Shown: piece after piece, positions 9,303 to 52,805 of the stretch
How the letters are laid out: each line of letters starts with the position of its first letter
How positions within the stretch are numbered: position 1 is the stretch's first letter
Assembly: GCF_037975245.1 (NCBI RefSeq)
Contig: NC_092568.1
Location: 5,153,501-5,217,500, forward strand
Direction: 5' to 3'
Length of the DNA: 64,000 nucleotides
Origin: Apostichopus japonicus
Lineage: Eukaryota; Echinodermata; Holothuroidea; Aspidochirotida; Stichopodidae
The notes under the pieces: model-generated
Databases searched by the model: none
What the model saw: the letters and a program-made list of their open reading frames with translations, nothing else
Told to the model about the DNA's origin: nothing
Position numbers and translations under genes: made by a program

Positions 9303-10009
9303 GGGGTACCGTTGTTTTCCGCACACGTTACTTTCCGCTGAAACAAAACGGTGTTTTCCGCAAACAAATTTGTCAGCGGAAAACAACGTTTTTTTCAGCG
9401 GAAAGTAAAGTTTTTTTTTTTGGAGAAACAGAATAACTTACTGAATTGATTAGGCACATGGAAGGATTTAGGAAGATGGAGAAGATAGGATTTGACTGTA
9501 ACAGGATAAAATGTAGCTTCGAGACTAGATTTAGGATACATGCAGTAGCTAAGGTTGTACTTGTAGCTTAGGCTGTAAGGCTTACTTATACAGCCATTTT
9601 ATTTCCAGCGAAAATCAAAGATACCGCCTTTCACACCTTTTTTTTAAACCATCATTACGCGGGCCGAATTTTTAATACTTAATTAGATACTCAATCCTTC
9701 ATGACGAGGGCCTCCCTTTGCCCTAGTATATATGTTTCTTTAATAATTTGTAATTACAAACACCCCAAGCCTCCTCTAAATTATACGCAGCTTAACTTTT
9801 CTGACATGAACTCAGTCTAACCATCCTTGATCGACGTTCTTTGATACTTTCTCATGTTATTTTAATCATCCTGCCTGAATTTGGTATCTCAAAATTGCGG
9901 AAAAATATAGTGTACAGGTAAGTGAAAAATAGGTGTTTTCCGCAGAAGAATTTTTTCAGCGGAAAGTAATCAGCGGAAAGTAACGTATGCGGAAAACAAC
10001 TGAAACCCC
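9303..10009. mobile_element. Non-autonomous DNA transposon, 707 bp, TTTAAT duplication
   Basis: Terminal inverted repeats of about 43 bp begin GGGGT and share GTTGTTTTCCGCA, CGTTACTTTCCGCTGA. Both sides are flanked by TTTAAT (9297-9302 and 10010-10015). The word TTTCCGC or its complement recurs about nine times, clustered in the two ends (9315-9410 and 9935-9995). There is no ORF. A 6-bp duplication fits superfamilies such as IS3EU or Dada, but I cannot assign it. Confidence 0.85.
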
Positions 10010-11904: not shown

Positions 11905-12563
11905 ATCAACGAGGTAAATGAATCTGGAGGATTCATGTCAATTGGGTGCGCGCGTACCATGTATGGAGGGTCATGTGATGTGTTCCAGGGTGGTACTATA
12001 CTGATATTTCTCTGTAGCAGTTCGAGAACAGTGTTAGTGACTTCGTGAAAGATTGGTCGGTTCGGACATGGGAAATAACGGCATAAGAAGGTACTGGTAC
12101 TTCAGGCCTACGAAATAGTGCTAATATGCTAACGTTCAACCTTATTCTCTTGAATGAAGGCAGGCTTTCTACATAATCTTACTTATTAATACAGCTCTAG
12201 GGCACGCTTTGTCTCATATGGCCTAACGTTTTAATACACGCTATAAGTTAATGTAGAAATGGGAAATGTTTAGTTCAGTGCAACCACGGAATTCTCCATG
12301 GAACAGAGCCTAATGCTGCTCGACGGGAATATAGCTATCACGTTAGGCTACAGGCACGGTTATTGCTAGGTAACGGGTGTCGTCTGCTGCTCTAAGCACG
12401 CAAACACATTTACGTACTAGTTGGGTGAAATAATCATGCGTAATAGGGAGAGTAGTATATTAGTACCACCCTGGAACACATCACATGACCCTCCATACAT
12501 GGTACGCGCGTACGCCCGTATTTACTGTGTGATAGTTTCTCCAGATTCATTTACCTCGTTGAT
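11905..12563. repeat. Innermost foldback with arms of about 95-105 bp
   Basis: Arms 11908-11998 and about 12461-12560 are inverted copies sharing AACGAGGTAAATGAATCTGG and CGCGCGTACCATGTATGGAG among others, with a loop of about 450 bp. It is either a third nested MITE or part of the middle element. Confidence 0.75.
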
Positions 12564-15961: not shown

Positions 15962-18900
15962 GTTAATATTTCATATTCATGCACTTATTCCCCACGTTAG
16001 GCTATGCCAGCCTAGGTCTAACACTGCGCCTAGCCAGTGGCAGTATATGATTATGTTGGGACTAGACTAGGCCTATCCTACTTTCCTAGGAAACAAGGAA
16101 TGCACATACTCACAGCTAGGTTTAAATGTAGACTGTATGTATAACATAGACGTAACGTTGGGAATCTCAGTAGGTGTAAGAGTCGAAAGTATAGAGTTTC
16201 ATTTTTAGCAGATCTACCTGTTATTTGTTAATGTTTGTTATCGGCTTAGGCCAAAGCTACCTTTTTTAGCTGGTTTTGGGCAACATGATATATTTATTCA
16301 TGATGTAGGCCTATGGTAACTTAACTTTGATGGCCCCTAACTTTGCTCACTGTAGTACATATTTGACTGCACTGACAGATATTGCGAATTTGCCGTGTGT
16401 GACAGTAAAATTGTAACCCCCTGTTCAAACAAAATTTATTCCCCACAACCTAAACGAAGACGACTAAAATGTATACAGAGCAAGAACGAGACATCAAGTC
16501 TGTATTCCCATGCACTTCCAGAATGATTCCACCCACAAACCAAAATGATACGATAAAATTAAATCAATTTGTGAAGTTTTCCTTGCTTTGACTGTTCTGA
16601 CGCAAGCACTTCACAAGTTTCAATCTATTTCATTCGGATGGTATTTGATCAATTGGTCAAATCACACAGAACGTGAAAGATGAAACTAGTCTACAAAATA
16701 AAATCAAAGAGATAATCATTATGTTTATCCTTGAAACAGTTGTATTCTTACAATAACAAATTTACTGTAACATACCAAGGCACACATCAAATTTCAAATT
16801 CCAATATTGTCAGGTGTATTGAGTTTTTAAGTTTGACTTCGTGCTACAATGACCCCAGAACTGTTACAGTTCAAATATTCAACGGTAATTAAAATAAACA
16901 GTAGTACAGTAAACATGCTGTTGACAAAAACTTTGTAATCATGGGCTTGGTATGGTGATGGTCTGCACAAAGTTGCTTGACATCTTGGGAATAAAGTTGA
17001 TGGTTAAAAAAACAACCTGAGTGAAGCCCTCAACTAAAAAGGCATTTTTACTTTCTGGTCATTTGCCCACCACATTTAGTGACCATGAGTTACATTGGGA
17101 GACCCATTATGATGACAGTAGGAGAAAGCTTAAAATGGGATTTGTGCACAAGATAGCTTACCCCTTGGCGATTGCATCTCCTCTGACTACTTGAGCAGTA
17201 ATATGAGAAGTCAGTTTATATTCCTATGTTATATTCACAGGTTTTATTCCCTAATATCCTCTAACTTCCTAATTCAAATAACAAGTATATATAATTTTTT
17301 CATAGTGAATGTTATTTGATAAAATGTTGACACAGAGTGGGCCAGTCATGATCCTCAATAAAGAAGACAAAGCAGATTCTTGGTTGTATGTAGATAAAAT
17401 ACCAATTTAATAACTATTTTGTACCCTTATCATGGTTAATACAAACAGCACTGAATGGCTCCTAAGCTGAACTTTAATGTTCATTTTCTCCATTAATATG
17501 CTCATAAATTTATGATTTGTGTTCAACCTCTCTCTCTCTTCACCCCTCCCCCCCCCCATATCCCTCCCTTCACCTCCAAGGACAGCTATTTTTTATTTTT
17601 TGGAAAGTTGTTAAACTATGTGTACAGTGGTGCCAACTTTATGGTGATAAATGTTCACATGGTACATGTCTGTTCACTTCTGTGCAACATATTGGAATAG
17701 ACACTGGACACTGAAAATTCTTCCAGTGAAACTAGAATCATATCCTTCAAGTTTCAGACTTGTAGAAATTACAATATATATAAATCTATAAGCTCTGATA
17801 ATTCTTTAAATAAAATATGTGTACTTGTCAAAGTTTTCATTGCTTATTTAAGATTTATATTGATTGTAAGCTATTGCTGTGATTAGTTAGCTCTGGTGAC
17901 AATATGATAATTTTTGGTGTACGGTAAGTTGTTTTTTTCTCTCGAAATTACAGCTTATAGAAAAGTCAACAATGGTTGTCAGATACTGTTTAAACTTAAC
18001 ATACTGGTAAATGCAGTTCTGCATGTGAAATATAATGTTTTTGTTGTTTTTGTTTTTTTTATTTTTATCTCAATACATTACATGTATAGAGATATTGTAA
18101 CAGTAAGTGGGACTCTCTCCTCTCTTAAAAATTTTTCAGCGTCTTCATATAAAGTTCTTTTTCTCTGGAATTTTCAGAGCAAGCATATATCATATAGGCC
18201 AACAAAAGTTACCATTTTTTATTCGAGAATTTTATCTCATTCTATGACTTCTTCACCGATTTATGTCCAAATCGGGCCAATTTGGTCTGAAATCCAGTTT
18301 AAACAACCCATTTTTGCACACGCTCCAAAACTTATGTTTTATGAAAGAGAATAGAATAGAATTGTCTGTCAACAGTGGTATCGTCTAAGATAGGGTCCTA
18401 TGTATTATATATTTTATTAACATTTTAAACTTTCATTAGTTGTTTACAGGTAGGTATTAATAAGAATTTTACCAGCTGTATATGACATTTTATGGCTTTT
18501 ATTTGCTTTATTTGATGTTTAAATGATTTTTCTTTCTTAAAACAACACTGAGCTGCCGCCCCTACTTTTAGTAAAAAGGTCCGTTTTTGATGATTAAGCT
18601 CCGCCCCCAAGTCTGTTTTGTAGCAGATTGGCTATGACTCATGGCAGCTACATGTTAGATATACGAAAATGGCTACCCTCGCGACCAATTTTTGTATTGT
18701 AGTTAGGTACGCCAGGTGTAGTGTATTGCATGCTAATTACATATAAGTGCATTTTATATCAGGCCTTCGTTTTTGTAACCTCCATTTAAGGATAGTACTG
18801 GTGTTCAGGTAGCTTTTCAGAGCAAGGGCCATGATAAGTTTGTTTGATTGCCCTTCATGTATTTTGTATAATTACGTATACACATTCTTGTATTTCTGAA

Positions 18901-21900
18901 GGCTACTTACTGTAGGCCTAGTGCATTTAAAACAATATATATATAGGCCTAGCCTAGGCCCCCTAGGTCTATTAGGCTTTCAGTGATAGCCACATTAGCA
19001 TTGTACTGGTGTTTAGACAGCTCTTCCTAGGAAGGACCAGGGTAAGTTTGTTGATGGGTACGTATAAAAGAGGAGCCGGCCATAGCATCACAACTTTTAT
19101 AAGACTATACAAATTGTATAAGGTTATGTTTTATTTATAAGGATATAAGATGTATAAGGTTATAAGAAGTATGTTTAGCTTTCTTTTGAACCTGTAATGT
19201 TTGACATCAAATGTACAAAGAATTAAAATAAAATAACAAAATGGAGAGGAACTGAGGTGGCTATTAGGGGAGGAAGAGGCCACCCATCACTTGCATATAA
19301 AAACTTGTAATCTTCTTTTACATTATTTTTCCAAGTCATAAATCCATGAAATCTTCATGTCAGAAAACTTGAGATGGAAAAACGTGGGTTGTTTTGATAT
19401 CTAGAAGTGGACACAGTTTTGATGGTAGTCACCACTGCAGTCTACAGTATCATACAGTAGGTCAATAGGCCTAGCTCTCAAGGCAGGCATCAAGAATCTG
19501 GTCGAGTTGTTCGCCTCTTCTTATTTGGCCGTTGTCATTGACGTCAAACTATATGACCAAAAAGTCCAACAGAGACTGACCCAAGATGAAGGATACCACA
19601 TAAAAAACAAGTTCTTAAATATTCTATGACATTACTAAACCTTGCAACGTCGTTCTTTCGACTAACAGGCAATGAGCGCTAAAGGCAAGACTAGCAGGAT
19701 AAAGTGTAACCTGCAGAGACTATTCGTGGCAAAGTAGCAAAAATGCAAGTTATATATTTGTTGTACCATGATTGATAATTGTAGAGACAGAGCAAAGATT
19801 TGAAATTAGGAATCAAAATTAAAACTTCCAGTATTGAGATACTGCGTCATTGATGCTCTTGTTGTTATTCTTTACTGTACCACATCTCCCAAATTATGGA
19901 AAGAAACATGAAATAGAAGAAGAAAAGAAAGGAGGTAATAAAACACCAAAAAGCAGAAAAAAGCAAGAACATTGTGGTGTAGAGTCATATTGTGTCTGTT
20001 TCATTTGCTGAGGTAGTTGTTTCCAAGGAATCTGAAGTCACTTAGAACAAGCATAAAACACACAAGGATTTTATATTCATCTGAAAATACAACCTAAATT
20101 AGTTTGAATAATTTCTTTTCTGGTGTTTCTCACTATTTCCTACCTTCATCTGGCATATAATGCTTGACTAAGGTAAAGTGCAGACCCTACGACATAGCCT
20201 CTGACATACTGTAAGCACTGTTGTTCTTGTTCAACTGATTTATGAATATCATTTCCCTTTAAGTGATCATATAAATACATTAATCTACTTATGTTGCATA
20301 TTAATCCCCCATTGTTTCATGGATAAGTTTTAATAGATTGCTAAATGAAATCCTCCCGAAGGTAACACATTCTAGGGCGCTACCTAAGATGCCTTGTTTC
20401 TTAAAGTATCGTTCACTGCTCAGTCGAGTATGATCGGTCTGCGGAGCTGCTTGTAATTCACAAGAAGCAAATTAATTGACAGGCTTTGACATGTTTGTGT
20501 GGTATATGAGATGTAAGACATGATCTGAGTGGTCATGAACCAGTTTGGCTGGCCAGGATTGGATTTTATGAGATAATTACCTTCTCTCTTTAATCTTTGT
20601 TTGAAGTAATCATGGAAGGTATTTTTCTTCAGGTTTGATTTAATTGGTGCAATGACCTCTGTACTTATTGCAAATTGCAGGAGACTAATACTGCAATCAA
20701 TCTTAGATTCGGATCTGAATGGCTATAGAACCGCATGTCAATAATTTGCTCCTCTTGAAAGCAGTAAAATACAAGCAAATGTCCAGCGTCCGAGGGCGAG
20801 ATTTCCCCCTCTTTCACACAACACTTACTACATAGCAAGTTGGTTGGGAGGCAATTGTTTTCTGTGATAAGATGAGCTTGTGTAGAAAATGCTATATGTG
20901 AAGATTAATTGCCAGTTATCCAATATTGATGACATTTACATAGGAAAATGGTTTACTGTTCATTCCCATCATCTTCTTGATCAAATGACACATAAAGACA
21001 ATCTGCTTTTCATGCCTGAAAACAAATTCTATAATACCAAAGTAACTTGTGTACTTTACAAATAATTAAAGTATTTATTTAGCACTCAAAACCAACATGT
21101 AAATGAACAGGAGACAATACATATTACAGTAAATCTAACATTACAGTAGTACCACAAAAGATTCAATCAGTTTCAAGAAGCTCAAAAATTTGTAAACTTT
21201 GTAACGTGTGTACGGTATGCCTTTTTATATTGAGCCATTGACATGCACCGACACACAACATTTCCCAGTCGTACAGTTTGTAAAGAAGACTGCACAATCA
21301 AACGTTTCAGCCAAGTATTCACATTATTTAGGGACAATATTGCTCAGAATCCTATTTGTCAGTAAACATAGTGCACATGGGCATGGATGCTCCTACCCAT
21401 AGACTTACTTATTAGTGTTGTTGGACATATCAGAATTCAATGTATACAGTTGTGCCTTTAAAACTTGAGAATTATCGATGCATCATCACAGGCAATGCGT
21501 GGTTAGTGTCTTTAAACTTAGCAAATAGATTGTCTACCCTTAAAAGTTTATAAATAGAATATAGTTGATCACTGTTTTGAAGCAATTGTCCAGACAGCCC
21601 AAATGATTTCTCAGGCCTCTATTTGCAGAGTCCTGTTTCAAAAGAAGGGGGAAACATCCGCCCCCCACCCGCCGTTCTAGCTATATTGCAGTGTAACCGT
21701 AGGTTGGGTATATGGACGCAGGGTGAATCTGTGTCATCACAACAATTTTTGTTCCCATTTGAAAGTTTCTGAGATTGAGGTTAGTTTCCATGGTAATTTT
21801 CTCTAAACCTGAAATGAAGGGGGTACCTGTACAATATGCTTTTGTGAAATGTTCTTGCAATATAAATATGTCAAACCTCAGGCCTATTCTTGTAACACAA

Positions 21901-24900: not shown

Positions 24901-27900
24901 CCAAAAAAATCCCCCCTCAAAAACAGATGTTGTGCCAATCAACCACCAATGAAATAAAGTATAGAAACAAACTGAACAACAAGAATAAATAACCTTGAAG
25001 AGGACAATGAAAGGTGTGATATATATTCATATTCATATATATATTCTGTTGCAAAGAGACACGCCATTGCCTAGAAGTCAGCCTTTGCTATTGCATGTAG
25101 CCCAGGTAGAAAAGTGGGAACTACTCCTTTGAAAAACCAGGCTTGTTTGTAATTCAAGTTTAATGTAAACTATTAAAAAAGTTTAATAGCAAACCTTTCA
25201 GCTTTCAAAGTACCGAATTGAAGGCAATCTTTTTAGCTCTAGGGTTTGATGCAGTGTTGCAGTTTATAAATGGATAGAACTTCTTAATTGATGATGCCCC
25301 ATGACGTTCAGGGTTTTACACTTTAATTAACTGGTTGTCCAGTGGATGAAGACAGACTAACTATAGTTGAATTTGAATCGAGTTACTTAAAAAGCACAGT
25401 CCCGATTCAGGTTGCACTTGTATAGTGATGTAATCGTGATAGGGCAACCAATGCACATCACAGATGTGTCATGTACTGTATAAATAAATATCATCATCAT
25501 TCATGAACGATTCGAGTTCTGCAGAAAAAGAACATCTTGCCTTTCCACTCCTAGTATCAATTGCAAAATGTTTGCAATACTTCAGTGGACCAATCTATAT
25601 AACGCAAAGTCCAAGTGACCTAACTTTAATTGTGAATGAGTGCGATGTATCATCACTTATGATGCTATCAGTGATAGAGATCTATATAAATAAAGGGTGA
25701 ACCAATGTTGTCTGAGGTATTCACGTAGAGCACCTCCACCACTGGAGGTCTAAATCATCATACTTACATTAAAACACTTTATTGCTACAATACACATTTT
25801 CATTCATACATAATTGCCACACATGCACATGAACACACACACATACCCTAACTCGCTTGCTGTACGCTACGTAGATTGCAATGGTTGTATCGAGGGAATC
25901 CAGGGATTCCTATACCTATTATTTGACATTACGTGCTTGGCAGTCCCGTATCGTCATGGTCCGAAAATAACTCTGACCTGATGACACCACACAGAGACCC
26001 AGCCTCCCGGTGGATAACGACCTCTTTCATTCAACGACAAACGACGTCAGGTTGATGTCATAGTGAGAGGAACCTGGCTTGGCTTCTCAAGTCTCCATGC
26101 CAAAGATTCCTGGGATAGCTGAGACGGAGCAATTGTACTCCCAAAGTTATCGAGTGTATTAATGAGACATACCTTGTATGCTCATGGGCATTCCTAATTG
26201 GGCCCAACTCATTAGATGCCGGGGCTAAAATGACCTCATAAGGAGAGGGTAGGGACGGCAAAGGACTGTCATTAGCATAAAGTATGCAACCGGGGAGGAG
26301 GACCGCCTCCTTCCATTGTGACAATAACGAGAGCAGGTATGACGTAATGGAGTTTTGTTAGATCGTTAGGCCTTATCGTTGTGTAGATAATGGGTGCTAT
26401 TATATGCACATAGTGACATTAATCTTACACTGCATAGCCTGGCAAGTCATTATCTCATTTTGATGGGCTCGCTGGCATGCGTCTTGCCAAGTGTATTTGA
26501 AAATTAGTCCTAAGTGTCAGAGTGTGGGATGAAGAATTGTTTTGAAAAAGCACTGGTTGAGCCTAAAGGAATTTTGTTGTCATGATATGATTAATGGGGG
26601 GCTGCCAGAGGATAGTTTTTTTTATGATATTTTTCTACCCAATTTCTGTTTTGGCCTTTGGAGCATGATAGGTACAGTAGGTTGTCGCATAGAGAAAGTG
26701 CTCATTTAATGCTCATGTTGTGAAAATCCTCATTTATGTTTCCAGTGACATGATAAAGTGGGTCACAACTTTTGAAATACTGTAGGACCACAGGAGAGTT
26801 ATTGCAAGAAATGTATTACAAAGGTAGAGGTCATCAACTTAGTTTATTAAGCCAACCAACTATTTTTCTAGAAACTTTTTTTTTAGATTTTTCTTTTTAT
26901 GAATTTGTAGCAAATCTGTCAAATTTGACCCTTGATGTCACAGACAATTTTTTTTGTGTAATTCATGTGTTTTGTGTGACGATGGTTGCTACAGTACTTG
27001 CTCTTGCTACCTTTTTTTTTTGCAGCTCATGCAGTAATTTCAAAGGGAGCACTTTGACAAAGGATTCTTAGGAAGTTGCTCATTCAAAGGACTCTTTATT
27101 TCATTTTAAGTTAGTTATACCATTTCTTCTGTGTATCAGAATGAGTTGGGGAGGAGGGTTGGGATAGGGTAGGTAGTGCTGATGAATTGTTATTGGGGAG
27201 GGGTCCTTGTTTGTGGAACTGCAAATGGGGGGATTGAGAATTTCATCAGTTCGATTGGAACTTACCTGGTAGTGTTTCTCCCTAGAGTTAAAAAGGGTTG
27301 TGTTTTTAACGCTTGATTTGTTGCCTATAAACCATTGGTTCACTGCATGTCTTGGTTGCTCTACCTGATACTGTAGATAGTCAATCTGTGGCACTAGCAG
27401 TCAAGTTGACTACTGTACCTGATATACTGTAGATAGTCAATCTGTCACTGGCAGTCGAGTCGACTACCTGATATACTGTAGATAGTCAATCTGTGGCACT
27501 AGCAGTCGAGTCCACTACCTGATATACTGTAGATAGTCAATCTGTGTCTCTAGCAGTCGAGTCGACTACCTGAAATACTGTAGATAGTCAATCTGTGTCA
27601 CTAGCAGTTGAGTCAAATACCTGATATACTGTAGATAGTCAATCTGTGTCACTGGCAGTCGAGTCGACTATCTGATATACTGTAGATAGTCAATCTGTCT
27701 CTCTGGCAATTGAGTCGACTATCTGATTTACTGTAGATAGTCAATTTGTGTCACTGGCAGTAGAGTCTACTACCTGATATACTGTAGATAGTCAATCTGT
27801 GTCACTGGCAGTCGAGTCGACTACCTGATATTCTGTAGATAGTCAGTCTGTGTCACTGGCAGTCAAGTCGACTACCTGAAATACTGTAGATAGTCAATCT

Positions 27901-30900
27901 GTGTCTCTGGCAATTGAGTCGACTATCTGATTTACTGTAGATAGTCAATCTGTGTCACAAGCACTTGAGTCGACTACCTGAAATACTGTAGATAGTCAAT
28001 CTATGTCTCTGGCAATTGAGTCGACTACCAATATACACATAGATAGTAAATCTGTGTCACTGACAGTCGAGTCGACTACCTGATATACTGTAGATAGTCA
28101 ATCTGTGTCACTGGCAGTCAAGTTGACTATCTGATATACTGTAGATAGTAAAATCTGTGTCACTAGCAGTGGAGTTGACTACCTGAAATACTGTAGATAG
28201 TCAATCTATGTCTCTGGCAATTGAGTCGACTACCAATATACACATAGATAGTAAATCTGTGTCACTGACAGTCGAGTCGACTACCTGATATACTGTTGAT
28301 AGTCAATCTGTGTCACTGGCAGTCAAGTTGACTATCTGATATACTGTAGATAGTAAAATCTGTGTCACTAGCAGTGGAGTTGACTACCTGATATACTGTA
28401 GATAGTCAATCTGTGTCACTAGCAGTCGAGTCGACTACCTGATATACTGTAGATAGTCAATCTGTGTCACTGGCAGTCAAGTTGACTATCTGATATACTG
28501 TAGATAGTAAAATCTGTGTCACTAGCAGTGGAGTTGACTACCTGATATACTGTAGATAGTCAATCTGTGTCACTAGCAGTCGAGTCGACTACCTGATATA
28601 CTGTAGATAGTCAATCTGTGTCACTAGCAGTCGAGTCGACTACCTGATATACTGTAGATAGTCAATCTGTGTCACTGGCAGTCAAGTTGACTATCTGATA
28701 TAGGGCAGGTCCAAGCTATTTGCACTGTGACGTACGGGACATTTCAGAGACTTAAATGTGTCTAAAAGTTATAAAAAATCTATTTTCCAGAAACTTTTTC
28801 AGGTTTTCATATTTGTTATTGCTGCTACTTTATTACAAACTTATGAAGATTTCCTACACTTGCTTTAATTAGGTCCCATCTTAATTAATGTACAGTGTGA
28901 CGTACGGGACCAGAGAATTTTGTGTTTTTTTTGCTAAAGAGCAAAGCTGAAATCGCTCTGAAATTAGGAGGGCAGTGATCAAGCTGTTATAACTAGTGAA
29001 TAGCCTAACCTTCCAAGAGCTAAGCTGTAACATATTAGAAAAAAATATGAAGCCATTCCAGTTCAGTGATTACACAAATGAAAATTGTCCTGTGACGTAC
29101 GGGACATGTGACGTACGGGACAATTTGTCCAAATAAAAATTGACTATGAAAACTCATATTTTTATTCTTGAATATACCATAACAAGCTGATTTCTACATA
29201 AAAACATTAATTTGGATATGTCAGAACAATGTCATTGGTAATTTCATGCCATATTTCCTTCTTTCTGGGATCGAAAAGAGCAGTGACTGTACTTGTGAGA
29301 TCATTCCACTACATAAAACATGGAATGCGTAAAGTATAAATCTACTCTACACATTCATCAAATACTCATAACATCAATTCTAGCTTTGTTAGACCACAAA
29401 TGATCCAAGATGCAAGTTTTGGTGCAAAACTGTCTCAGTATATACTGTACAACACTGTATCATACTCCCCACTATTGACCCTGAAGTTGAAATATGATCC
29501 ATCCCATTCAAAACATACCAAAATGTCCACAGTAACATCAACATAATGTCCATCTATGAAACTAGTACAACAAAGAAAACTCTATAGACCTAATAATGGT
29601 TACCAGACCAAATGCTCATAACATCAATTCTAGCTTTGTTAGACCACAAATGATTCAAGATGAAAAGTTTTGATGCAAAACTGTTTTGGTATATATACTG
29701 TACAGCACTGTATCATACTCCCCACTATTGACCCTCAAGTTGAAATATGATCCATCATATTCTACCAAAATGTCCACAGTAACGTCCACATAATGTCCAT
29801 CTGTGAAACTAGTACAACAAAGAAAACTCTATAGACCTGATACTGGTTACCAGACCAAATACTCATAACATCAATTCTAGCTTTGTTAGACCACAAATGA
29901 TTCAAGATGCAAAGTTTTGGTGCAAAACTGTTTTGGTATATACTGTACAACACTGTATCATACTCCCCACTATTGACCCTCAAGTTGAAATATGATCCAT
30001 CCCATTCAAAACATATCAAAATGTCCACAGTAACGTCCACATAATGTCCATCTATGAAACTAGTACAACAAAGAAAACTCTATAGACCTGATACTGGTTA
30101 CCAGACCAAATACTCATAACATCAATTCTAGCTTTGTTAGACCACAAATGATTCAAGATGCAAAGTTTTGGTGCAAAACTGTCTCAGTATATACTGTACA
30201 ACACTGTATCATACTCCCCACTATTGACCCTCAAGTTGAAATATGATCCATCCCATTCAAAACATATCAAAATGTCCACAGTAACGTCCACATAATGTCC
30301 ATCTATGAAACTAGTACAACAAAGAAAACTCTATAGACCTGATACTGGTTACCAGACCAAATAGTTATAACATCAATTCTAGCTTTGTTAGACCACAAAT
30401 GATTCAAGATGCAAAGTTTTGGTGCAAAACTGTTTCCGGTATATACTGTACAACACTGTATCATATTCCCCACTATTAAACCCTCATGTTGAAATATGAT
30501 CCATCCCATTCAAAACATATCAAAATGTCCACAGTAACGTCAATGTAATGTCCATCTATGAAACTAGTACAACAAAGAAAACTCTATAGACCTGATACTG
30601 ATTATTGAACAAACTCATGAGTGTTTGTCCTCTGCAAAAATTGGGCGAGCAAAACTCTACACTTGTAAGGGCCAAAGCCATTAATGGTCATCACTTTACC
30701 TGGAATTTGAACATTGCCACTTAGGCTTATTTCACCCATGGTTATGAGAACAACTAACCAAAGTTCTGTAATCATAAAAAAAATTACGATAACTCGCATA
30801 ACAATGGAATGCGGTCATTCCAAAATGCAGGTAGCACACTCCTGATGTGGTGGGACGGAATTTCAGAAAAATGAGGTAATTACATATAGGAACAAAGTTG

Positions 30901-33900
30901 AAGTTTTCTGTTTTTGACAGTATAAATGGCCTTTAATGAGGATACTTTATGCACTATAAAATGTATCAATAGTAGTTCTTGAATGAAGAAAAAAATGAAA
31001 CGAAAGTGTTCAATTCCGTCCCACCACATTTTTGAACATATTTTTTTAATTTCCAAGGCGGAAAAAAATGATAATTTTTTTTAAACACTCCAAACTATCA
31101 ACTATGTATGTAACTGACACCTCTGAGTGGAGAAAAAATAAATATTTTATCCTGGATAGACAGGGGGATAGTCCAACATTTTTCGTGGTGGGACGGAAAC
31201 AAGGTGTGGTGGGACGGAATTGTTAATGGAAGGCATCTTCAAACAGCATGTCTGGTCCAAAATTCACCTCTGTCACTTAAGATTACAAACTTATTCAGAC
31301 TCCTTGAACACCCAACCTTATAACAATGTGATTAATTGATGATACTTCAAAATTTTATGTATCTGGATATTCCATACATGTATACTGTACACATCACATC
31401 AGTTTTGAACCTCATGTGTCAAAACAACACATTTTTGGGTAAATTGAGAATGGGTTTTTTATCATGCATAAATAAATCCCATCACTATTGAAATAGTCCT
31501 AGTTGTTCACCCTAGGTTTCTTTCTTGGCCCTTTTGGCTTTCCTAAACTATCCATTGTAGAACATGTGCTTTTGAATTGATATCATCAATGATCCACGTG
31601 CACAAGAAATTGACTCTAAAGTCAAGTTGTAATTATGGTACTCACATACTGAAGCATACAAGATAGAAGAGCTAGATTGCAAGAATAAAGGTAAGAATTC
31701 ATTGCTTCTCAATAGTAATATATTAATTTACCTCCAGTTCATGGTTATAGGCAATTCAGACAATTTGATAGTGATAATTATGATTTAGCCTAAGCTGTTG
31801 CCTAACAGACTATGTTATATTGGAAAGGTTTAAAACAAAACTTATAATATAATGAGAGGTAGAAATGTGTTCCCTACAGTACTAATGCTAGGAAGCAAAC
31901 CTGTTAGATTAAATATTACATAGTTTGCTGGAGTTGTCTAGCCTAGCAAATTAATGTTTTAGCCTAAGCTGTTGCCTAACAGAATATGGCATGCTGCCTA
32001 AGCTGTTGCTATCTACCATACTAAGTTGGATTTTGAAACTTGTAGCCTACGATGCAAGAAAAGTGAACCAAAACACCATGTACAGTAGGCTAGTTGAAAT
32101 ATATTGTGCAGGAAGTGTATACTGTATATGCCTAGCAATTATTCAGCCTGTTCATAACTGCACATTATGAGGCCGACTCTCATGACATTGCATTTGTAAT
32201 TTACACAATTCACAGGATGGTAATCACCAACTTATTCTTTCTTTCTATTCACATGTTGGCATATGGGGGAAGACCACTATTGCTTCCTGGTCCCCCAACT
32301 TCTTAATAATTAAGCCAGAAATGTGTGTGGCTATACCCCCCACACCCAGTCCCCTTTTCATGCATCCCGCTGGTAAGAATGTCCTTTTATCTCTCTTTGC
32401 AAAACAGATCAATATGGAAAATCCTGAGCCTCAAAATGTGTCTGCTAACAGATACATACATTATAGGAAGAAAAAGAAGGAGAGAATGGGGTGCTGACTG
32501 CTGAGGTATTTCCAGACTGGGAGTGGACGTGGGAAGAAAAGGCAAAGGGCCAACCAGAAAGCAAATAATCGAGCAGCGTACAAAGCATCCATTACAAATG
32601 TTCAAAATAACTTTCCAACTGAATAAGTCCAAGATCTTATGGAGCATATTCAATATTTCACTCTGGACAGCATAAATTTCATTGTTGCTTATGAACTTCT
32701 TGTGAGAGAAAACATAATTGTTGATTGTTTTCGTACCTAATCAACAGCCTTTACATTGGAAAAAAATTCCGTCCCACCACATTCCGTCCCACCACACTGA
32801 CACACTTTTGGTAAAATTAACACAATTCTTATGCGTGAAGTATAATTTCTGCCATTGTTTCCCTAATGGTAGAAGAATAGTTCACCTTCATTTCAGTGTT
32901 AATAATTACTATGATATTGTACTACTTTTGATAATAATTACATAAAGGTTACATGTACATGATTTCATGAGATTTATCATTCCGTCCCACCACGTCAATA
33001 TATTTGTGTTACCATGGCAACATCTTCAAATTTGTGTCTGTTTTTTTTGTGTCTGGTTGCAGTCTGTGACTGACCTGTTTGTGTGGATATCCTGATTCCT
33101 TCATATATGCTACATATAAAGTGGTATTATTCAAAAGGTCTATCAAATTCCGTCCCACCACAATTACGGTAATTTTGGCTTTGGCCCGTAACTAAAGATC
33201 TCAATGTCTACTATCTAAGTCTGGACACAAGAACATTGTTGCACAGTCATGATAGTCACACTTCACAATAGGCCTACGAAATGTTGAAATGCAAACTCAA
33301 CATTCTTGAAGTTGTCCTCATTCAATGTCAATGTTGAATAGCATTGTAGATGATTCTGTATCCCACACACACACACAATTGACTTCCCGATAGTATATTG
33401 AACAACACCTGGGATGTTGGTGGTCATCAGTCAATGGTTTATTTGAAGCCATGTTGTGCTCTTCAGGCATGCAGGGATTATAAGTTGCAACTACCATCTT
33501 TCAACAAAATAGATTTGCAAGCATTGAAAGGTTTCCAGTAGAGGTCCCCATTGGAGCCCATGCATGTTTATTATGTATAAATACAGGGTTTCCCCCACAC
33601 TATGTCCCGTACGTCACATTTTGTCCCGTACGTCACATTTTTAATTTTGATAATTAGATTTGCTGTGAATATTTTTTCAAATTTTTTGGGATGGATTTTG
33701 TTGAACAATGTTCTTAATTAGAACTTTACAGAATATCACCAAAAAAAAATTGTTCGTCCATATCAAAACTTGAAAAAAAGTGCTGAAAATTGTGACGTAC
33801 GGGACATCAGTATTTGGACACTAGCTAATTAGCATATTTAATTGATGAACCCCCAAACATCATATGTTAAAATTATTGGAAGGAAGGGTGTATCATGTCC

Positions 33901-36900
33901 CATATAACTTATATTCAATAAGTTCATATTGCTGGCAGGGAAATAGAATACAAAATGTCCCGTACGTCACGCTGCAATTTGAATTTATGCAAATTAGCCG
34001 GCTGTAATTGTTCGAATAGGCAAAACAATTTAAAAAAATTATGAAAATCTGAAACTTCAATAATTCAGCTTTAACATGACACCACATTTAGGGAGCTTCA
34101 GTAAAGTTTGAAATTTGGCTTCTAGGGATACAATAGCTTGGACCTGCCCTATACTGTAGATAGTAAAATCTGTGTCACTAGCAGTGGAGTTGACTACCTG
34201 ATATACTGTAGATAGTAAAATCTGTGTCACTGGCAGTCGAGTTGACTACCTGATATACTGTAGATAGTCAATCTGTGTCACTAGCAGTCAAGTCGACTAC
34301 CTGATATACTGTAGATAGATAGTCAATCTGTGTCACTGGCAGTCGAGTCCACTACCTGATATTCTGTAGATAGTCAATCTGTGTCTCTGGCAATTGAGTC
34401 CACTACCAATATAGACATAGATAGTAAATCTGTGTCACTAGAGTCGAGTCGACTACCTGATATACTGTAGATAGTCAATCTGTGTCACTGGCAGTTGAGT
34501 CAAATACCTGATATACTGTAGATAGTCAATCTGTGTCACTGGCAGTCGAGTCGACTATCTGATATACTGTAGATAGTCAATCTGTCTCTCTGGCAATTGA
34601 GTCGACTATCTGATTTACTGTAGATAGTCAATTTGTGTCACTGGCAGTAGAGTCTACTACCTGATATACTGTAGATAGTCAATCTGTGTCACTGGCAGTC
34701 GAGTTGACTACCTGATATTCTGTAGATAGTCAGTCTGTGTCACTGGCAGTCAAGTCGACTACCTGAAATACTGTAGATAGTCAATCTGTGTCTCTGGCAA
34801 TTGAGTCGACTATCTGATTTACTGTAGATAGTCAATCTGTGTCACAAGCACTCGAGTCGACTACCTGAAATACTGTAGATAGTCAATCTATGTCTCTGGC
34901 AATTGAGTCGACTACCAATATACACATAGATAGTAAATCTGTGTCACTGACAGTCGAGTCGACTACCTGATATACTGTAGATAGTCAATCTGTGTCACTG
35001 GCAGTCAAGTTGACTATCTGATATACTGTAGATAGTAAAATCTGTGTCACTAGCAGTGGAGTTGACTACCTGATATACTGTAGATAGTCAATCTGTGTCA
35101 CTAGCAGTCGAGTCGACTACCTGATATACTGTAGATAGTCAATCTGTGTCACTGGCAGTCGAGTCCACTACCTGATATTCTGTAGATAGTCAATCTGTGT
35201 CTCTGGCAATTGAGTCGACTACCAATATAGACATAGATAGTAAATCTGTGTCACTAGAGTCGAGTCGACTACCTGATATACTGTAGATAGTCAATCTGTG
35301 TCACTGGCAGTCGAGTTGACTATGTGATATACTGTAGAAAGTAAATCTGTGTCACTAGCAGTCGAGTCGACTACCTGATAAATTGTAGATAGTCAATCTG
35401 TGTACTTTGCGTTTTTCACTTACCTATCTTTGCACAACCATGGTATATTGTCACTGTACTGTGTTTTATATTGATCAGCGATGTGATTTACGTTTTCTCT
35501 CAACACTTTTCCGTGGTTCACTTTCGGTTCACCAGCTTCATTCTGATAAAGAAACAGGTTTGGATAAACTTATTGCAGATGAGTTACAAATTTACAGTAC
35601 CTGACTTCATAGATAGAGTAGATTATGGAGCAATTTTAATTGGTTTACAAATATAATTGGTTAATAGATTAAACTATAGATGAACTAGACGATTAATTAC
35701 TAGACTACCTGCAAAGTTTAAATAGCCAGCATTTTTGCTTCGTTCCTCGCTTACCTGTCTCCTCACAACCTGAGCACCTTCTACTGTGCCTAGAATGAAC
35801 TGGTAACCTTTTAACACTGTGCACTCCCCCCTGGTCTATCCCCTTCCTTCTCATGAGACTTCTCATGCACAGTGTTAAAAGGTTACCAGTTCATTCTAGG
35901 CACGGTAGAAAGAGGTGCTAAGGTTGTGAGGAGACAGGTAAGCTTGTCACTCGTAAATATCCAAACCAGTAAGTTTTGGAATGTTTGATGTACTCTTATG
36001 CTTCCTGGATTCTCTTCACATCAAAAGTATATTAAATACTCAACTAAATAAATAATTTATCCAATCCCACTTGTTTTAAAGCTCTGTGGTACAAGGAAGC
36101 TTAAAGTTACTGAAAGAATTTGGTTTAGCTTGTGTATCACTTGCCAAATTCTATAAAGTTAAACGTTTTGTCAATATTGTGTCAGGGAATTTTTTTCTCG
36201 GGTTTCAGAGAAACTAGCTTTGCTTCCACATTGTCAAAAGTTGATATGTTTGTACAAGCTATGACCCCATAACACCTACAACTGGTTTGACCTCCACACT
36301 AGTTTGGAACCCACCAGTCTGAATAATTTGCTCAAACTGTTCTATGAAAGTTACTACCATACTATGTTTATTGACTATAGTGGGACTGAAAATACATGTG
36401 TTTGCCAGCTATAGAGGTCATGGCCTTCACATAGGTATATTTCCTTGTTGGCCTTATACCTTGTCAGTGCATTGAAGCAGAGCTGAGATTTGTCAATGTT
36501 AATTAAGGTTTGGTGGAATTATAGCATCATACACAATTAGTCACATGTATGGCCTTGACGTCCTTGCGTTATTAAGCAAATAAAGTATCTATACAGATGT
36601 GAATCTGTAAACTGACTACCAGTCATTGGAAGTTTTGGGTGGGAATTATTCTCAATTTCTCACTGATTTTACATTTTTCTAGAGCCTGAGCATTTTGAAA
36701 GCTTTAACGTATTTAATCCAAAGCTGGGCTGTTTTTGTTACAATCATTGCAATATAGTGTATTCATCCCATGTCTACCTGATAGATGTAGGGTAACGTCT
36801 AATGGAAGTTGAGGTTTGATAGCGGATGAAAGTGTCCATCAACCGGCCATATACTAGTATGTGATGATTAGCTAAATTTATAGGTCTGCATAAACTGAAC

Positions 36901-45900: not shown

Positions 45901-47242
45901 TATGTGAGCAAGGTGTCTAGGAAGTGTGAGATGAACAGGGCAGGGATATGTTTGGAATTCATGGCTCTTTGAAACCTTGTAACCCCTCTCCACCTCCCCC
46001 CCTTCCCCTCCACTCACCCTTCCACATAACCACAAATTAAGAATTGAGGTTAGCAAACAGTTTTGTAAAGAGTAACAATAATTGTTCGGCCTACTATCGG
46101 TGTCCAAGCGTTAGGTCCTCATTCCTGTGTAGCTGTGACTGTGAAGCATGTTATGGTCTTGATAAGCTGATGTAAAGAAAGGTCCTGTAATTTCATTCTG
46201 TTTGAAAGTGTGAGGACCAATTTAATTTACAATTAAGAATACTGCCACCTTGACTTGCTCCTACTCTTCGTTGACTTAATATAATAATCTCTTTTGTAGT
46301 GTAAAATTTACTTTATGATGTCCTTGAATAATCTCTTTCTGCATCACTGTGTGTGTGTGTGACATGACTGAGAGGAAAGTTTAGGATTTCAAGTTTTCAT
46401 GTTGAATGCTTCCTAATGCATTATTCATGTCTGTCCATATGTTGAATGCTTTCCTAATGCATTATTCATGTCTGTGCATATGTTGAATGCTTTCTAATGC
46501 ATTATTTATGTCTGTTATATGTTGAATGCTTTCCTAATGCATTATTCATGTCTGTGCATATGTTGAATGCTTTCCTAATGCATTATTCATGTCTGTGCAT
46601 ATGTTGAATGCTTCCTATTGCATTATTCATGTATGTGCATATGTTGAATGCTTCCTAATGCATTATTCATGTCTGCATATGTTGAATGCTTTCCTAATGC
46701 ATTATTCATGTCTGTGCATATGTTGAATGCTTCCTATTGCATTATTCATGTCTGTGCATATGTTGAATGCTTTCCTAATGCATTATTCATGTCTGTGCAT
46801 ATGTTGAATGCTTCCTAATGCATTATTCATGTCTGTGTCCAATGTTGAATGCTTTCCTAATGCATTATTCATGTCTGTGCATATGTTGAACAGCCAGTTG
46901 GGACAATTTCCGAATGCTAATACCTCTCTAAACTGTACTCCAATATCATGCTCTCAAAGCACTGGTACAGTAAAAATAATTCCTAAACTTGATCTGATAG
47001 AAACATGTTATTCATACGAGTGCTCTGAAGTGGTACATAACACTACAGTATAGATAAAATTGTCCCAACTGGGTGATGTTGAAATGCTTCTTAATGCATA
47101 TTCATATCTGTGCATATATTGAATGCTTCCTAATGCATTATTCATATCTGTGCATCTCTTGCAGCAGCTTCCCCAAGGAACGATGTTAAATGCCGAAACA
47201 GCCAAGAAACTAACAGCTGGTCAAGGTCGATCTTCTACGTAG
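15647..47242 (+). CDS. SRF: Serum response factor (SRF), nine coding exons
   Basis: SRF is a MADS-box transcription factor that binds CArG boxes as a dimer and, with MRTF or ETS-family partners, drives actin-cytoskeleton, muscle and immediate-early genes. Exons are 15647-15961, 22007-22267, 38246-38333, 38875-39051, 39519-39636, 42174-42337, 43494-43631, 45382-45473 and 47165-47242. All junctions are GT-AG and phases agree, giving 476 residues (vertebrates about 508). The MADS box starts at residue 76 (GRVKIKMEFIDNKLRRYTTF) and is cut by intron 1 after GIMKK. It continues in exon 2 with AYELSTLTGTQVMLLVASET, then the SAM-type extension through ITSESGKALIQTCLNSPD. Residues 193-476 are rich in Gln, Thr, Ala and Pro, the activation domain. 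A lysine-rich KKQKKTKG just before the MADS box is the likely nuclear signal. Intron 2 is 16 kb and full of repeats. Confidence 0.95.
15962..22006. other. SRF intron 1
   Basis: About 6.0 kb. Apart from the 1.8-kb dispersed repeat at 18066-19863 I see no coding or structured element. Confidence 0.7.
18066..19863 (+). mobile_element. 1.8-kb dispersed repeat, copy A
   Basis: Almost identical along its length to 52806-54551, in the same orientation. Both start TATCTCAATACATTACATG. Near the 3' end both have GTATTGAGATA, the inverse of the start, followed by about 24 more shared bases. The family is unrecognised. A frame at about 19461-19625 reads as plausible protein (GIKNLVELFASSYLAVVIDV and onward) but is short. 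Likely a non-autonomous or decayed transposon. Confidence 0.75.
22007..22267 (+). CDS. SRF: SRF exon 2, MADS dimerisation part and SAM extension
   Basis: A 261-nt exon with acceptor CTACAG and donor AAG|GTAGGT, phase 0 on both sides. Begins AYELSTLTGTQVMLLVASET and GHVYTFATRKLQPMITSESG, almost invariant in animal SRF, then an acidic stretch (SVSEEDEK). Confidence 0.95.
23705..23734. repeat. Short perfect hairpin
   Basis: Arms CATGGAGGTAAAA and TTTTACCTCCATG with a 4-nt loop. Its function is unknown; it may be the tip of a decayed foldback element. Confidence 0.7.
25380..25505 (+). repeat. Possible retroelement 3' tail
   Basis: CATGTACTGTATAAATAAAT followed by ATCATCATCAT resembles the 3' end with short ATC repeats of CR1- or RTE-like elements or their SINEs. 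No body was found upstream. Confidence 0.35.
27370..28702 (+). repeat. 51-bp satellite array, left part
   Basis: About 25 units of roughly 51 bp, consensus pieces CTGTAGATAGTCAATCTGTG, TCACTGGCAGTCGAGTCGAC and TACCTGATATA. Variant units (GGCAATTGAGTCGACTAC; ACCAATATACACATAGATAG) recur in the same order, so there is a higher-order pattern. The array continues at 34150 after the transposon insertion. Confidence 0.95.
28726..29121 (+). repeat. Left subterminal motif cluster of the 5.4-kb element
   Basis: TGTGACGTACGGGAC at 28726-28740, 28896-28910, 29091-29105 and 29107-29121, all in the same orientation. The last two are one base apart. Likely transposase-binding sites. Confidence 0.88.
29207..29308 (-). 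CDS. Candidate terminal exon in the 5.4-kb element
   Basis: After an AG acceptor (TTTTATGTAG) the minus strand is open for 33 codons to a TAA, including ALFDPRKKEIWHEITNDIVL. The amino-acid mix is protein-like. I cannot match it to a family, and the phase with the upstream repeated exon does not agree without another exon between them. Confidence 0.35.
   Translation of the reverse strand, partial: WNDLTSTVTALFDPRKKEIWHEITNDIVLTYPN
29340..30600 (-). repeat. Five tandem copies of a 250-bp unit with an exon-like core
   Basis: Units start with CATCAATTCTAGCTTTGTTA at about 29372, 29623, 29870, 30120 and 30372. On the minus strand each has a pyrimidine-rich AG acceptor (TTGTTGTACTAG), an open core and a GTACAG donor. 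Cores are 29451-29561 (111 nt), 29704-29808 (105), 29949-30059 (111), 30200-30310 (111) and 30452-30563 (112). The first four keep multiples of three, and the fifth has a frameshift and stop. The core reads FIDGHYVDVTVDILICFEWD followed by GSYFNLRVNSGEYDTV. Family unknown. Confidence 0.75.
30669..33187. mobile_element. 2519-bp DNA transposon nested in the 5.4-kb element, GTAA duplication
   Basis: Perfect 12-bp inverted ends GGGCCAAAGCCA (30669-30680 and 33176-33187), flanked by GTAA (30665-30668 and 33188-33191). The motif TGTGGTGGGACGGAATT occurs four times at the left (30846, 31012 inverted, 31185, 31205) and four times inverted at the right (32765, 32781, 32979, 33146). Same layout as its host element with a different motif, so the two probably belong to one superfamily. 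Confidence 0.88.
32412..32625 (+). pseudogene. Possible N-terminal transposase fragment in the 2.5-kb element
   Basis: From ATG at about 32412 the frame reads MENPEPQNVSANRYIHYRKK, meets one TGA, and goes on in the same frame to GRGKKRQRANQKANNRAAYK before a TAA. A basic stretch with an NRAAYKAS-like word is often seen near the start of some large DNA-transposon proteins. That link is weak. The TGA may also be removed by splicing (TTTCCAG acceptor follows). Confidence 0.35.
33318..33497 (-). CDS. Short open frame in the 5.4-kb element, possible transposase remnant
   Basis: A 59-codon frame from ATG to TGA, including MVVATYNPCMPEEHNMASNK and DDHQHPRCCSIYYREVN. The frame directly upstream in another phase is also protein-like (GSNGDLYWKPFNACKSILLK), suggesting one coding exon broken by a frameshift. 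Together with the frames at 29.2-30.6 kb it suggests a minus-strand gene within the element. Function not recognised. Confidence 0.35.
   Translation of the reverse strand: MVVATYNPCMPEEHNMASNKPLTDDHQHPRCCSIYYREVNCVCVWDTESSTMLFNIDIE
33604..33970. repeat. Right subterminal motif cluster of the 5.4-kb element
   Basis: GTCCCGTACGTCACA at 33604-33618 and 33623-33637, TGTGACGTACGGGAC at 33791-33805, and a 14-bp match at 33957-33970. Three of four are inverted relative to the left cluster, as expected for element ends. Confidence 0.88.
34150..35400 (+). repeat. 51-bp satellite array, right part
   Basis: Continuation of the same array. Roughly 34493-35060 repeats the unit order and private variants of about 27607-28190 nearly base for base, showing a recent block duplication of about 570 bp. 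Confidence 0.95.
35745..35950. mobile_element. Foldback MITE or long hairpin
   Basis: Arms of about 78 bp (35750-35828 and 35868-35944) are near-perfect inverted copies, outer ends GCTTACCTGTCTCCTCACAA, inner ends AACTGGTAACCTTTTAACAC, with a loop of about 40 nt. Transcribed with SRF it would form a long hairpin RNA. The arms are longer than usual for a microRNA precursor, so a MITE is the simpler reading. Confidence 0.8.
38246..38333 (+). CDS. SRF: SRF exon 3
   Basis: An 88-nt exon with acceptor TTGTCAG and donor GTTTGT, leaving in phase 1. Encodes ESPRNPTMFTVTVPGAGADV and a Ser/Thr-rich end. It is identified by splice phase and by composition like the SRF activation domain. Confidence 0.8.
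38875..39051 (+). CDS. SRF: SRF exon 4
   Basis: A 177-nt exon with acceptor TTTAATAG and donor GTAAGG, phase 1 to 1. Encodes a Thr/Ser-rich segment including GTGHTYPMTTYLPTTTVSSG. A second acceptor 15 nt inside (CTTGCAG) keeps the frame and could give an isoform five residues shorter. Confidence 0.82.
39519..39636 (+). CDS. SRF: SRF exon 5
   Basis: A 118-nt exon with acceptor TCGCTTAG and donor GTATGA, phase 1 to 2. Encodes a Gln/Ala/Val-rich segment with VQVTQAQTPVQVQALPHQG, typical of SRF activation domains. Confidence 0.85.
41785..42065 (+). repeat. Tandem repeat of about 118 bp in SRF intron 5
   Basis: About 2.3 diverged copies containing GACA(G/A)TTATCTCTATGACATA, AATGATGATGGTTGGGTTTG and GTCTGTGGAGG, with G-rich stretches between. 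Confidence 0.7.
42174..42337 (+). CDS. SRF: SRF exon 6
   Basis: A 164-nt exon with acceptor GTCATTCAG and donor GTAAGT, phase 2 to 1. Encodes LPQQATATMSGNTRQQLLTT and a Gln run, then AVAMLASTQPQALT. Confidence 0.85.
43494..43631 (+). CDS. SRF: SRF exon 7
   Basis: A 138-nt exon with acceptor CATCTTAG and donor GTAAGT, phase 1 to 1. Encodes HIMYQTPQGVVYAAGAAGTV and ALVLNYQ. The MYQTPQGVVYA block is well kept in SRF proteins. Confidence 0.88.
44215..45234. mobile_element. 1020-bp hAT element in SRF intron 7
   Basis: Inverted ends CAATGTTTGCACGGG and TAGTGTTTGCACGGG (the right one on the minus strand), flanked by a perfect 8-bp duplication GTAAATGA (44207-44214, 45235-45242). Inside are about 2.7 copies of a 127-bp tandem unit (44330-44640) with TTAGTGTGGTGTTAGGCT. 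No transposase, so non-autonomous. Lies about 150 bp before SRF exon 8. Confidence 0.92.
45382..45473 (+). CDS. SRF: SRF exon 8
   Basis: A 92-nt exon with acceptor TTTAACAG and donor CAG|GTAAGT, phase 1 to 0. Encodes TQTLGAGGQATQTYPITALP and LPLQGVALSQQ. Confidence 0.82.
46397..47160 (+). repeat. 41-bp minisatellite in the last SRF intron
   Basis: About 11 units of CATATGTTGAATGCTTTCCT plus AATGCATTATTCATGTCTGT up to 46890, then two or three diverged units at 47076-47160. A MITE splits the two parts. The array ends 4 nt before the exon 9 acceptor. Confidence 0.92.
46891..47075. mobile_element. 185-bp hAT MITE inside the minisatellite
   Basis: Inverted ends CAGCCAGTTGGGACAATTT and CACCCAGTTGGGACAATTT (right end on the minus strand), one mismatch in 19. 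Perfect 8-bp duplication ATGTTGAA (46883-46890, 47076-47083), which is part of the minisatellite unit. Confidence 0.92.
47165..47242 (+). CDS. SRF: SRF exon 9 with stop
   Basis: A 78-nt exon ending TAG at 47240-47242. It encodes QLPQGTMLNAETAKKLTAGQ and a short end, resembling the conserved SRF C-terminus. The acceptor is CTCTTGCAG followed at once by CAG, a NAGNAG site that could add or drop one Gln. Confidence 0.85.
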   Translation, partial: QLPQGTMLNAETAKKLTAGQGRSST

Positions 47243-52700: not shown

Positions 52701-52805
52701 CTTAATCTCTTTCCTCTTCCTCTTCCTTCTTTTTCTATCCCTCTCGTCATCTTCTCATCCCCTTTTCGTTATATTAGTTTTCTACCCAGCCCGTTTTACC
52801 CTTAT
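47243..52805 (+). other. SRF: SRF 3' UTR and downstream flank
   Basis: No further gene is seen. AATAAA occurs at 49829-49834 and 51611-51616, either of which could serve SRF, so the UTR length is open. Poly-T runs at 49579-49592 and 49720-49747. A diverged tandem duplication near 48610-48770 shares TTTATCATGTCACAGCAGGT. Confidence 0.45.

Follow-up and report, generated by a model that had tools for sequence, protein, structure and literature searches.

Nested DNA transposons of Apostichopus japonicus probably keep the places of eight predicted protein-binding sites while the word at the sites is replaced

In the genome of the sea cucumber Apostichopus japonicus we analysed a stretch of 64,000 nucleotides (assembly GCF_037975245.1, contig NC_092568.1, positions 5,153,501 to 5,217,500 of the forward strand; hereafter the window), which carries at window positions 28703 to 34149 an insertion that a preliminary description, made from the sequence alone, had presented as a single 5.4-kb transposon. 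This insertion consists of one element nested in another, probably both non-autonomous DNA transposons of the same group, each equipped with eight predicted protein-binding sites, the places of which are held while the word is replaced at all eight. The clearest support for the mechanism discussed below is that between families the word changes at all eight places, while places and orientation do not.

Eight sites at the ends of two nested elements

The outer element lies on the forward strand with its A end at 28703 and its B end at 34149. It is bounded by an exact 18-bp terminal inverted repeat (TIR), GGGCAGGTCCAAGCTATT, at 28703–28720 and, inverted, at 34132–34149, for which the window holds no third place at up to three mismatches (chance mean 0.01). 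The element is flanked by a TATA duplication (28699–28702 and 34150–34153) and stands in its target, a 51-bp satellite array that covers 27361–28702 on the left, as delimited by Tandem Repeats Finder, and 34150–35403 on the right; joining the flanks leaves the satellite unit intact. The exact ends, the duplication and the intact unit on removal had all been put forward in the preliminary description and are borne out. Its single transposon, in contrast, has to be replaced by an outer element of about 2.9 kb, because the 5.4-kb span includes a separate element of a sister family.

This inner element, which defines the second family and is likewise non-autonomous, measures 2519 bp (30669–33187) and is inserted in reverse orientation, with its A end at 33187 and its B end at 30669. 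Its TIR GGGCCAAAGCCA was found at 30669–30680 on the forward strand (B end) and at 33176–33187 on the reverse strand (A end), flanked by a GTAA duplication at 30665–30668 and 33188–33191. The joined flanks were found uninterrupted, at up to six edits, in 18 of 19 other copies of the outer element, which is direct proof of an empty site.

Both elements carry an array of eight sites. In the outer element, the 15-bp word TGTGACGTACGGGAC is found on the forward strand at A1 (28726–28740), A2 (28896–28910), A3 (29091–29105) and A4 (29107–29121), and on the reverse strand at B4 (33604–33618), B3 (33623–33637) and B1 (33957–33971, one mismatch), with B2 (33791–33805) inverted and therefore on the forward strand. 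These are the only places of the word in the window, seven exact and one with a single mismatch, all within 420 bp of the A end or 550 bp of the B end of the element; at up to three mismatches the chance mean is 0.47 and none of 100 shuffles reaches eight. The site starts are separated by 170, 195 and 16 bp at the A end and by 166, 168 and 19 bp at the B end. The eight copies in two subterminal zones were thus correctly seen in the preliminary description. As for the transposase-binding array that it took them to be, they do form a distinct array of words resembling binding sites, whose positions moreover recur in other families; binding by a transposase is our reading of this arrangement rather than an observation. 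The inner element holds eight exact copies of a different 14-bp word, GTGGTGGGACGGAA, namely B1 (30847–30860), B3 (31185–31198) and B4 (31206–31219) on the forward strand, A4 (32767–32780), A3 (32782–32795), A2 (32980–32993) and A1 (33148–33161) on the reverse strand and B2 (31014–31027), which is inverted like that of the outer element, on the reverse strand as well.

When the nested element is read in its own orientation, outer and inner sites fall at the same eight places in the same orientations, within 6 bp. The centres of the GGGAC core in the outer element lie 36, 206, 401 and 417 bp from the A end and 191 (+), 347 (−), 525 (+) and 544 (+) bp from the B end, those of the inner element at 34, 202, 400 and 415 bp and at 186 (+), 352 (−), 524 (+) and 545 (+) bp, respectively. 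All A sites point inward and B2 is inverted in both elements. When four sites were scattered randomly over 560 bp, they agreed with the outer places as well as the inner sites do in 0 of 400,000 trials for the A end and in 2 of 400,000 for the B end, with orientation not counted. Three of the four long site intervals are near 168 bp and one is near 196 bp. After removal of TIR and motifs, the spacers of the two elements were no more similar than shuffled sequence (z 0.3 at the A end, 0.6 at the B end).

Copies and further families in the genome

Across the 671.6-Mb genome, TGTGACGTACGGGAC occurs at up to one mismatch in 926 places, compared to 41 for a reversed control. The outer A end (38 bp, up to three mismatches) was detected at 121 places, 62 of them exact, and the outer B end at 111. 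Pairing the 100 listed A ends with the 100 listed B ends gave at least 86 A–B pairs among these matches: 82 of 1.8–3.4 kb, three longer ones (6,452, 6,582 and 13,166 bp) and that of the window; 14 ends in each listed set were left unpaired, and about 21 A ends and 11 B ends fall outside the pairing. Full-length copies, the collection of which the preliminary description had proposed, were obtained by fetching the first 20 further copies in which the leading 38 bp match exactly, a choice that biases this sample towards intact A ends. A B end was present in 19 of the 20, and 16 of these 19 show an exact 4-bp duplication; in one of the three inexact cases (L026) the flanks agree in three bases only. 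Together with the window copy, the 17 exact duplications include TCTA, TGGT, AGAA, AACA, GTCA and TCCA, and in 14 of the 17 it is an A that adjoins the A end. All eight sites are placed within 8 bp of the window layout in 15 of the 19 copies. The 19 copies and the window copy were aligned, giving a mean pairwise identity of 96 % for each end; the selection by the first 38 bp biases TIR and A1 in this alignment.

Two further observations were made on this family. The 251-bp tandem repeat, present in five units within the outer element of the window (29359–30604), travels with the family, and copy lengths cluster near 2160, 2440, 2680 and 2930 bp; these steps of about 250 bp suggest that the number of 251-bp repeats varies between copies. 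In the consensus of the outer ends (20 copies), CpG is nearly confined to the motif sites, which hold 16 of the 18 dinucleotides, and in the B end motif CpGs are less often changed (11 of 317 cells) than the two other CpGs (16 of 79).

The inner A end (40 bp, up to three mismatches) is found at 17 genome places, and since 15 of these are exact the inner family looks young. One copy (C2:11531770) was set aside, as it comprises only 536 bp of the A end with no B end within 9.7 kb. The 12-bp end GGGCCAAAGCCA, which the inner family has in common with the fourth family described below, occurs at 102 genome places compared to 10 in the control. Among the 100 matches listed we counted at least 40 facing pairs, 18 of which are 2.45–2.6 kb long, the size of the inner element, and 17 are 2.7–2.95 kb long, the size of the fourth family.

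When 317 kb of sequence were screened for the A layout, a third family and tandem arrays came up beyond the known motifs; of these arrays one was read (L024) and two were judged by their regular spacing (L042, L043). The third family was read in one copy, nested in an outer copy (L030, positions 3937–6145), and C1:3358853, found by the three-core pattern described below, looks like a second. It is 2209 bp long with ends GGGCAGGGTCAAGC and GGGCAAGGTCAAGG, and its motif GGTAACGGAGGGAC occupies eight sites, six of them exact, one with one change and one with two. Its A core centres, at 26, 205, 392 and 415 bp, follow the A layout roughly. The fourth family, for which three spaced GGGAC cores served as genome pattern with 100 places listed, was read in two copies. 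The first (L044, reverse complement of 128–3048) is 2921 bp long, has the ends GGGCCAAAGCCAAAA and an AGTT duplication, and carries the motif TGCGAGGGACGGAA at eight sites, six exact and two with one change. The second (L045), a 6.7-kb copy with GGGCC ends, had been a candidate of its own and turned out to be a rearranged member of the fourth family that has gained a 5.1-kb insert and undergone a deletion, and in which four words ending in GGGACGGAA are left. Core centres of the fourth family lie at 33, 205, 402 and 416 bp from the A end and at 188 (+), 355 (−), 524 (+) and 543 (+) bp from the B end. At all eight sites, its word differs from that of the inner family 5' of GGGACGGAA, and the spacers of these two families are homologous (z 8.0 and 6.9).

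A common asymmetric layout of four plus four sites is accordingly seen in three of four families, with A sites at about 35, 205, 400 and 416 bp and B sites at about 188, 350 (inverted), 524 and 544 bp. GGGC ends occur in all four families, 4-bp duplications accompany them, and the site word is a different one in each. Defining the group by GGGC ends, a 4-bp duplication, the four plus four sites and a family-specific motif takes in the outer, the inner and the fourth family, and the third in part. We did not recognise such a layout in any description in the literature searched, which covered the journals incompletely.

Coding frames and other repeats of the window

The longest stop-to-stop frames of the families are short, with 76–165 codons in the 20 outer copies, 117 in the inner, 94 in the third and 121 in the fourth family (L044). 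The encoded protein that the preliminary description had hoped to collect along with the copies did not turn up in this form: none of the 20 outer copies has its own transposase, and neither has any other copy read. Ten short frames of the inner element gave no match in Pfam; those at 32387–32740 (e.g. MENPEPQNVSANRYIHYRKKKKERMG) may be a coding remnant. Because some A and B ends are unlisted and 14 are unpaired in each listed set, there may yet be an autonomous outer copy. Two long outer copies, of 6.4 and 6.6 kb (L029, L030), were considered and rejected, as they owe their length to other insertions, one of which is the third family.

The one candidate gene was found in the 13,166-bp outer copy (L031/L032, within C14:11920428–11933993), as a frame of 817 amino acids whose motifs we take to resemble those of a CACTA/Chapaev-type (CMC) transposase. 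It carries C2H2 fingers, the finger region being split over two frames, and a sequence search against Pfam and the PDB gave sub-threshold matches only (the best being zf-C2H2_aberr, E 0.019; DUF4218, E 0.07; PDB, E 0.24). This gene was ruled out as the outer transposase, since it belongs to a nested EnSpm/CACTA-like element of 10.7 kb that starts with CACTGTAAAAAATGTCTATG, has CACTG…CAGTG ends (CACTGTAAAAAAT…ATTTTTTACAGTG) and a 2-bp TG duplication, and lies at a site where the other outer copies compared show no interruption. Over its first 572–577 bp and its last 1918–1925 bp, the 13-kb copy agrees with that of the window and with five of those fetched, L010 being gapped. The insert holds a second frame of 308 amino acids besides. 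Of 361 candidate relatives of its transposase in the genome, 55 were scored and gave 56 matches, many with open frames of 836–950 codons, and in the six such families examined C2H2-type fingers are N-terminal. Sequence resembling a CACTGT-type left end lies upstream of the gene in four of four related families, in two of them (F1, F2) chosen among several CACTG words; the right ends of these four families were sought and not found.

Several other repeats lie in the window. An element of about 0.7 kb at 9303–10009 has similar inverted ends (GGGGTACCGTTGTTTTCCGCA and GGGGTTTCAGTTGTTTTCCGCA), TTTAAT on both flanks and repeated words (TCAGCGGAAAGTAA and TGCGGAAAACA) near both ends; it is another array-bearing transposon, with an apparently different duplication length. 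A 1.8-kb dispersed repeat is present at 18062–19863 and 52802–54551 with 92 % identity. Two pairs of inverted arms at 11905–12563, of 53 bp (98 %) and 25 bp (100 %) and 462 and 609 bp apart, are foldback-like, and a 40/81-bp tandem array occupies 46399–46890 with 12 units of 40 bp (93 %).

Explanations, mechanism and known systems

Several results weigh against the proposed group of transposons with held places and replaced words. The B core centres of the third family lie elsewhere, at 368 (−), 383 (−), 548 (−) and 571 (+) bp, its flanks AGGT and AGAT differ by one base, and its B-end spacers are weakly similar to those of the inner family (z 3.1, 2 of 300 shuffles), compared to z values between −0.7 and 1.9 for the family pairs other than inner and fourth. 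The A2–A4 spacing of the third and fourth families is not independent, because the scans already required A-type spacing; A1, TIRs, B sites and duplication of the fourth family are independent of that selection. The three-core GGGAC pattern is not enriched over its reversed control (1223 versus 1561), and the places listed are mostly satellites. Sites are lost or shifted in 4 of the 19 outer copies, and the 13-kb copy has seven. In the copies read, no transposase or binding protein was identified for the GGGC-ended families. Finally, the 20 aligned copies show no clear difference in conservation in favour of the motif columns over the spacers: mismatches number 22 of 1191 in motifs and 164 of 7013 in spacers at the A end, and 17 of 1189 and 297 of 9559 at the B end, with 2003 and 299 of 5000 circular shifts, respectively, reaching the observed motif conservation. 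This would be expected if copies decay after insertion.

That motif columns do not clearly exceed the spacers in conservation also speaks for a reading in which the motifs are captured host transcription-factor or insulator sites outside the transposition machinery, and the outer motif contains a TGACGTA that may be CREB-like. We nevertheless regard this as very improbable: in three families, three different words stand at nearly the same places of both ends, B2 being inverted each time, and the third family adds a further word at A-type places, whereas one would not expect the word of a host factor to be exchanged at every site from one family to the next. The equal layout might also reflect simple common descent of the ends, the motif having been changed by gene conversion between its copies and the spacing being free of functional constraint. 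The homologous spacers of inner and fourth elements would fit such descent, but outer and inner spacers have no detectable similarity although their sites agree within 6 bp, and neutral drift should add indels that shift the sites, so that we consider it unlikely as well.

As to classification, the insertion could not be placed in a named superfamily by the preliminary description, and the same still holds for the group, no coding copy having been found among those read. The transposons might be divergent members of EnSpm/CACTA (CMC) whose ends drifted from CACTG to GGGC, with motifs that are TNPA-type sites and a CACTA-like transposase of the genome as partner. Family-specific subterminal repeat arrays are indeed found here, the genome has many CACTA-like transposase frames, one of them inside an outer copy, and in EnSpm/CACTA elements short conserved ends go together with asymmetric subterminal repeats differing widely between families (PMC2613891). 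Against this stand the duplications of 4 bp, the separate CACTG ends and TG duplication of the insert holding that gene, and the ends of the four families (outer GGGCAGGTCC, inner and fourth GGGCCAAAGC, third GGGCAGGGTC), none of which is of the CACTA/CACTG type; an EnSpm/CACTA origin therefore seems improbable to us.

Duplications of 8–10 bp are typical of hAT, Merlin and Mutator, compared to 4 bp here, and Kolobok and Sola3 target TTAA, which is absent among the 17 exact outer duplications. The same absence (0 of 17) excludes the TTAA target of piggyBac, and the 3-bp duplication of Academ differs from the 4 bp found here, L026 agreeing in three bases only; both features are taken from PMC5199201. 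A TA duplication as in Tc1/mariner is incompatible with TGGT, AGAA, TCCA, AACA and GTCA, which lack TA. Sola1, Chapaev and Ginger, by contrast, make 4-bp duplications. It is thus conceivable, and we put it forward tentatively, that the families belong to Sola1 or Sola2 or to a Chapaev-like or Ginger-like lineage in which these ends are unrecorded. Sola1, Sola2 and Ginger are among the superfamilies of miniature inverted-repeat transposable elements in iMITEdb (PMC5199201), and 4-bp duplications, a feature of Sola2 according to PMC3627910, were found in 16 of the 19 fetched outer copies and the window copy, in the inner element (GTAA) and in the fourth family (AGTT). The duplications reported for amoebozoan Sola2 are however AT-rich (AWWT in one host; ATAT, AAAT and ATTT in another), in contrast to the outer targets TCTA, TGGT, AACA, GTCA and TCCA.

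For the two nested transposons, we propose that both would be moved in trans by transposases from elsewhere. One sequence-specific DNA-binding domain, of the transposase or of a TNPA-like accessory protein, would occupy all eight sites of a family, at a spacing that the shape of the synaptic complex, or nucleosomes lying between the sites, would impose. As A and B ends are not equivalent, A would pair only with B, and only this pairing would give excision; a DDE-type transposase with a 4-bp staggered cut and strand transfer would produce the duplication. A shift in the specificity of this domain would require the whole set of eight sites to follow, so that families would diverge by concerted motif replacement while the layout stays. 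Taken together, the sequences suggest a code that differs from one family to the next and is read by a protein complex whose shape is constant. A bolder version, possible though less likely than the reading above, is that the group, which has no name in the sources consulted, perhaps forms its own superfamily, its end architecture of eight sites, unlike A and B ends and spacings kept to a few bases, mostly about 168 bp, being locked by a synaptic complex that is large or includes nucleosomes, and the 14–15-bp word being exchanged as a whole at every one of the eight sites when families split. If true, it would offer a natural series of matched lock-and-key changes.

It is an open question how a transposase can acquire a new DNA specificity and still recognise its own ends, since each of these has to change along with it. 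The families of this one genome display a before and an after, with the same or related ends and layout and another word at eight sites, and between inner and fourth families the word was switched while the spacers are still recognisably homologous. If the word proves to be read by a protein, the series would supply orthogonal transposon ends and make it possible to test directly whether helical phase or nucleosomes underlie the spacing. Annotators can use the layout to search for members of the group, whose families have hardly any sequence in common.

Among known systems, the two ends of phage Mu and of Tn7 are likewise different from each other; three or four transposase sites are spaced along each end and determine that left pairs with right. 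Mu and Tn7 differ in being bacterial and in their 5-bp duplication, and we know of no turnover of their site words under a frozen layout. Short TIRs and 4-bp duplications recall Sola2, from which the AT-rich duplications reported for that superfamily set our elements apart (PMC3627910). Galileo, a Foldback-like member of the P superfamily, resembles them in its multiple sites for the THAP domain of the transposase over long ends (PMC3688188), and differs in its long TIRs with tandem repeats, compared to TIRs of 12–18 bp here. Hermes, a hAT element, has asymmetric subterminal repeats and two unlike ends of about 450 bp, the left of which is read by three protomers of a transposase octamer via zinc-finger BED domains; it has an 8-bp duplication and 4-bp words in 17 and 14 copies instead of eight sites of 14–15 bp (PMC10368747). 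EnSpm/CACTA elements, such as maize En/Spm and soybean Tgmt*, also have short terminal repeats and asymmetric, family-specific subterminal arrays; the En/Spm word is bound by TNPA and CACTA words differ between families, and the authors of the Tgmt* study raise co-evolution with TNPA-like proteins (PMC2613891). Unlike these, the elements of A. japonicus have GGGC instead of CACTA/CACTG ends, a 4-bp duplication instead of the 3 bp of Tgmt*, and eight well-spaced sites of 14–15 bp whose positions are held between families.

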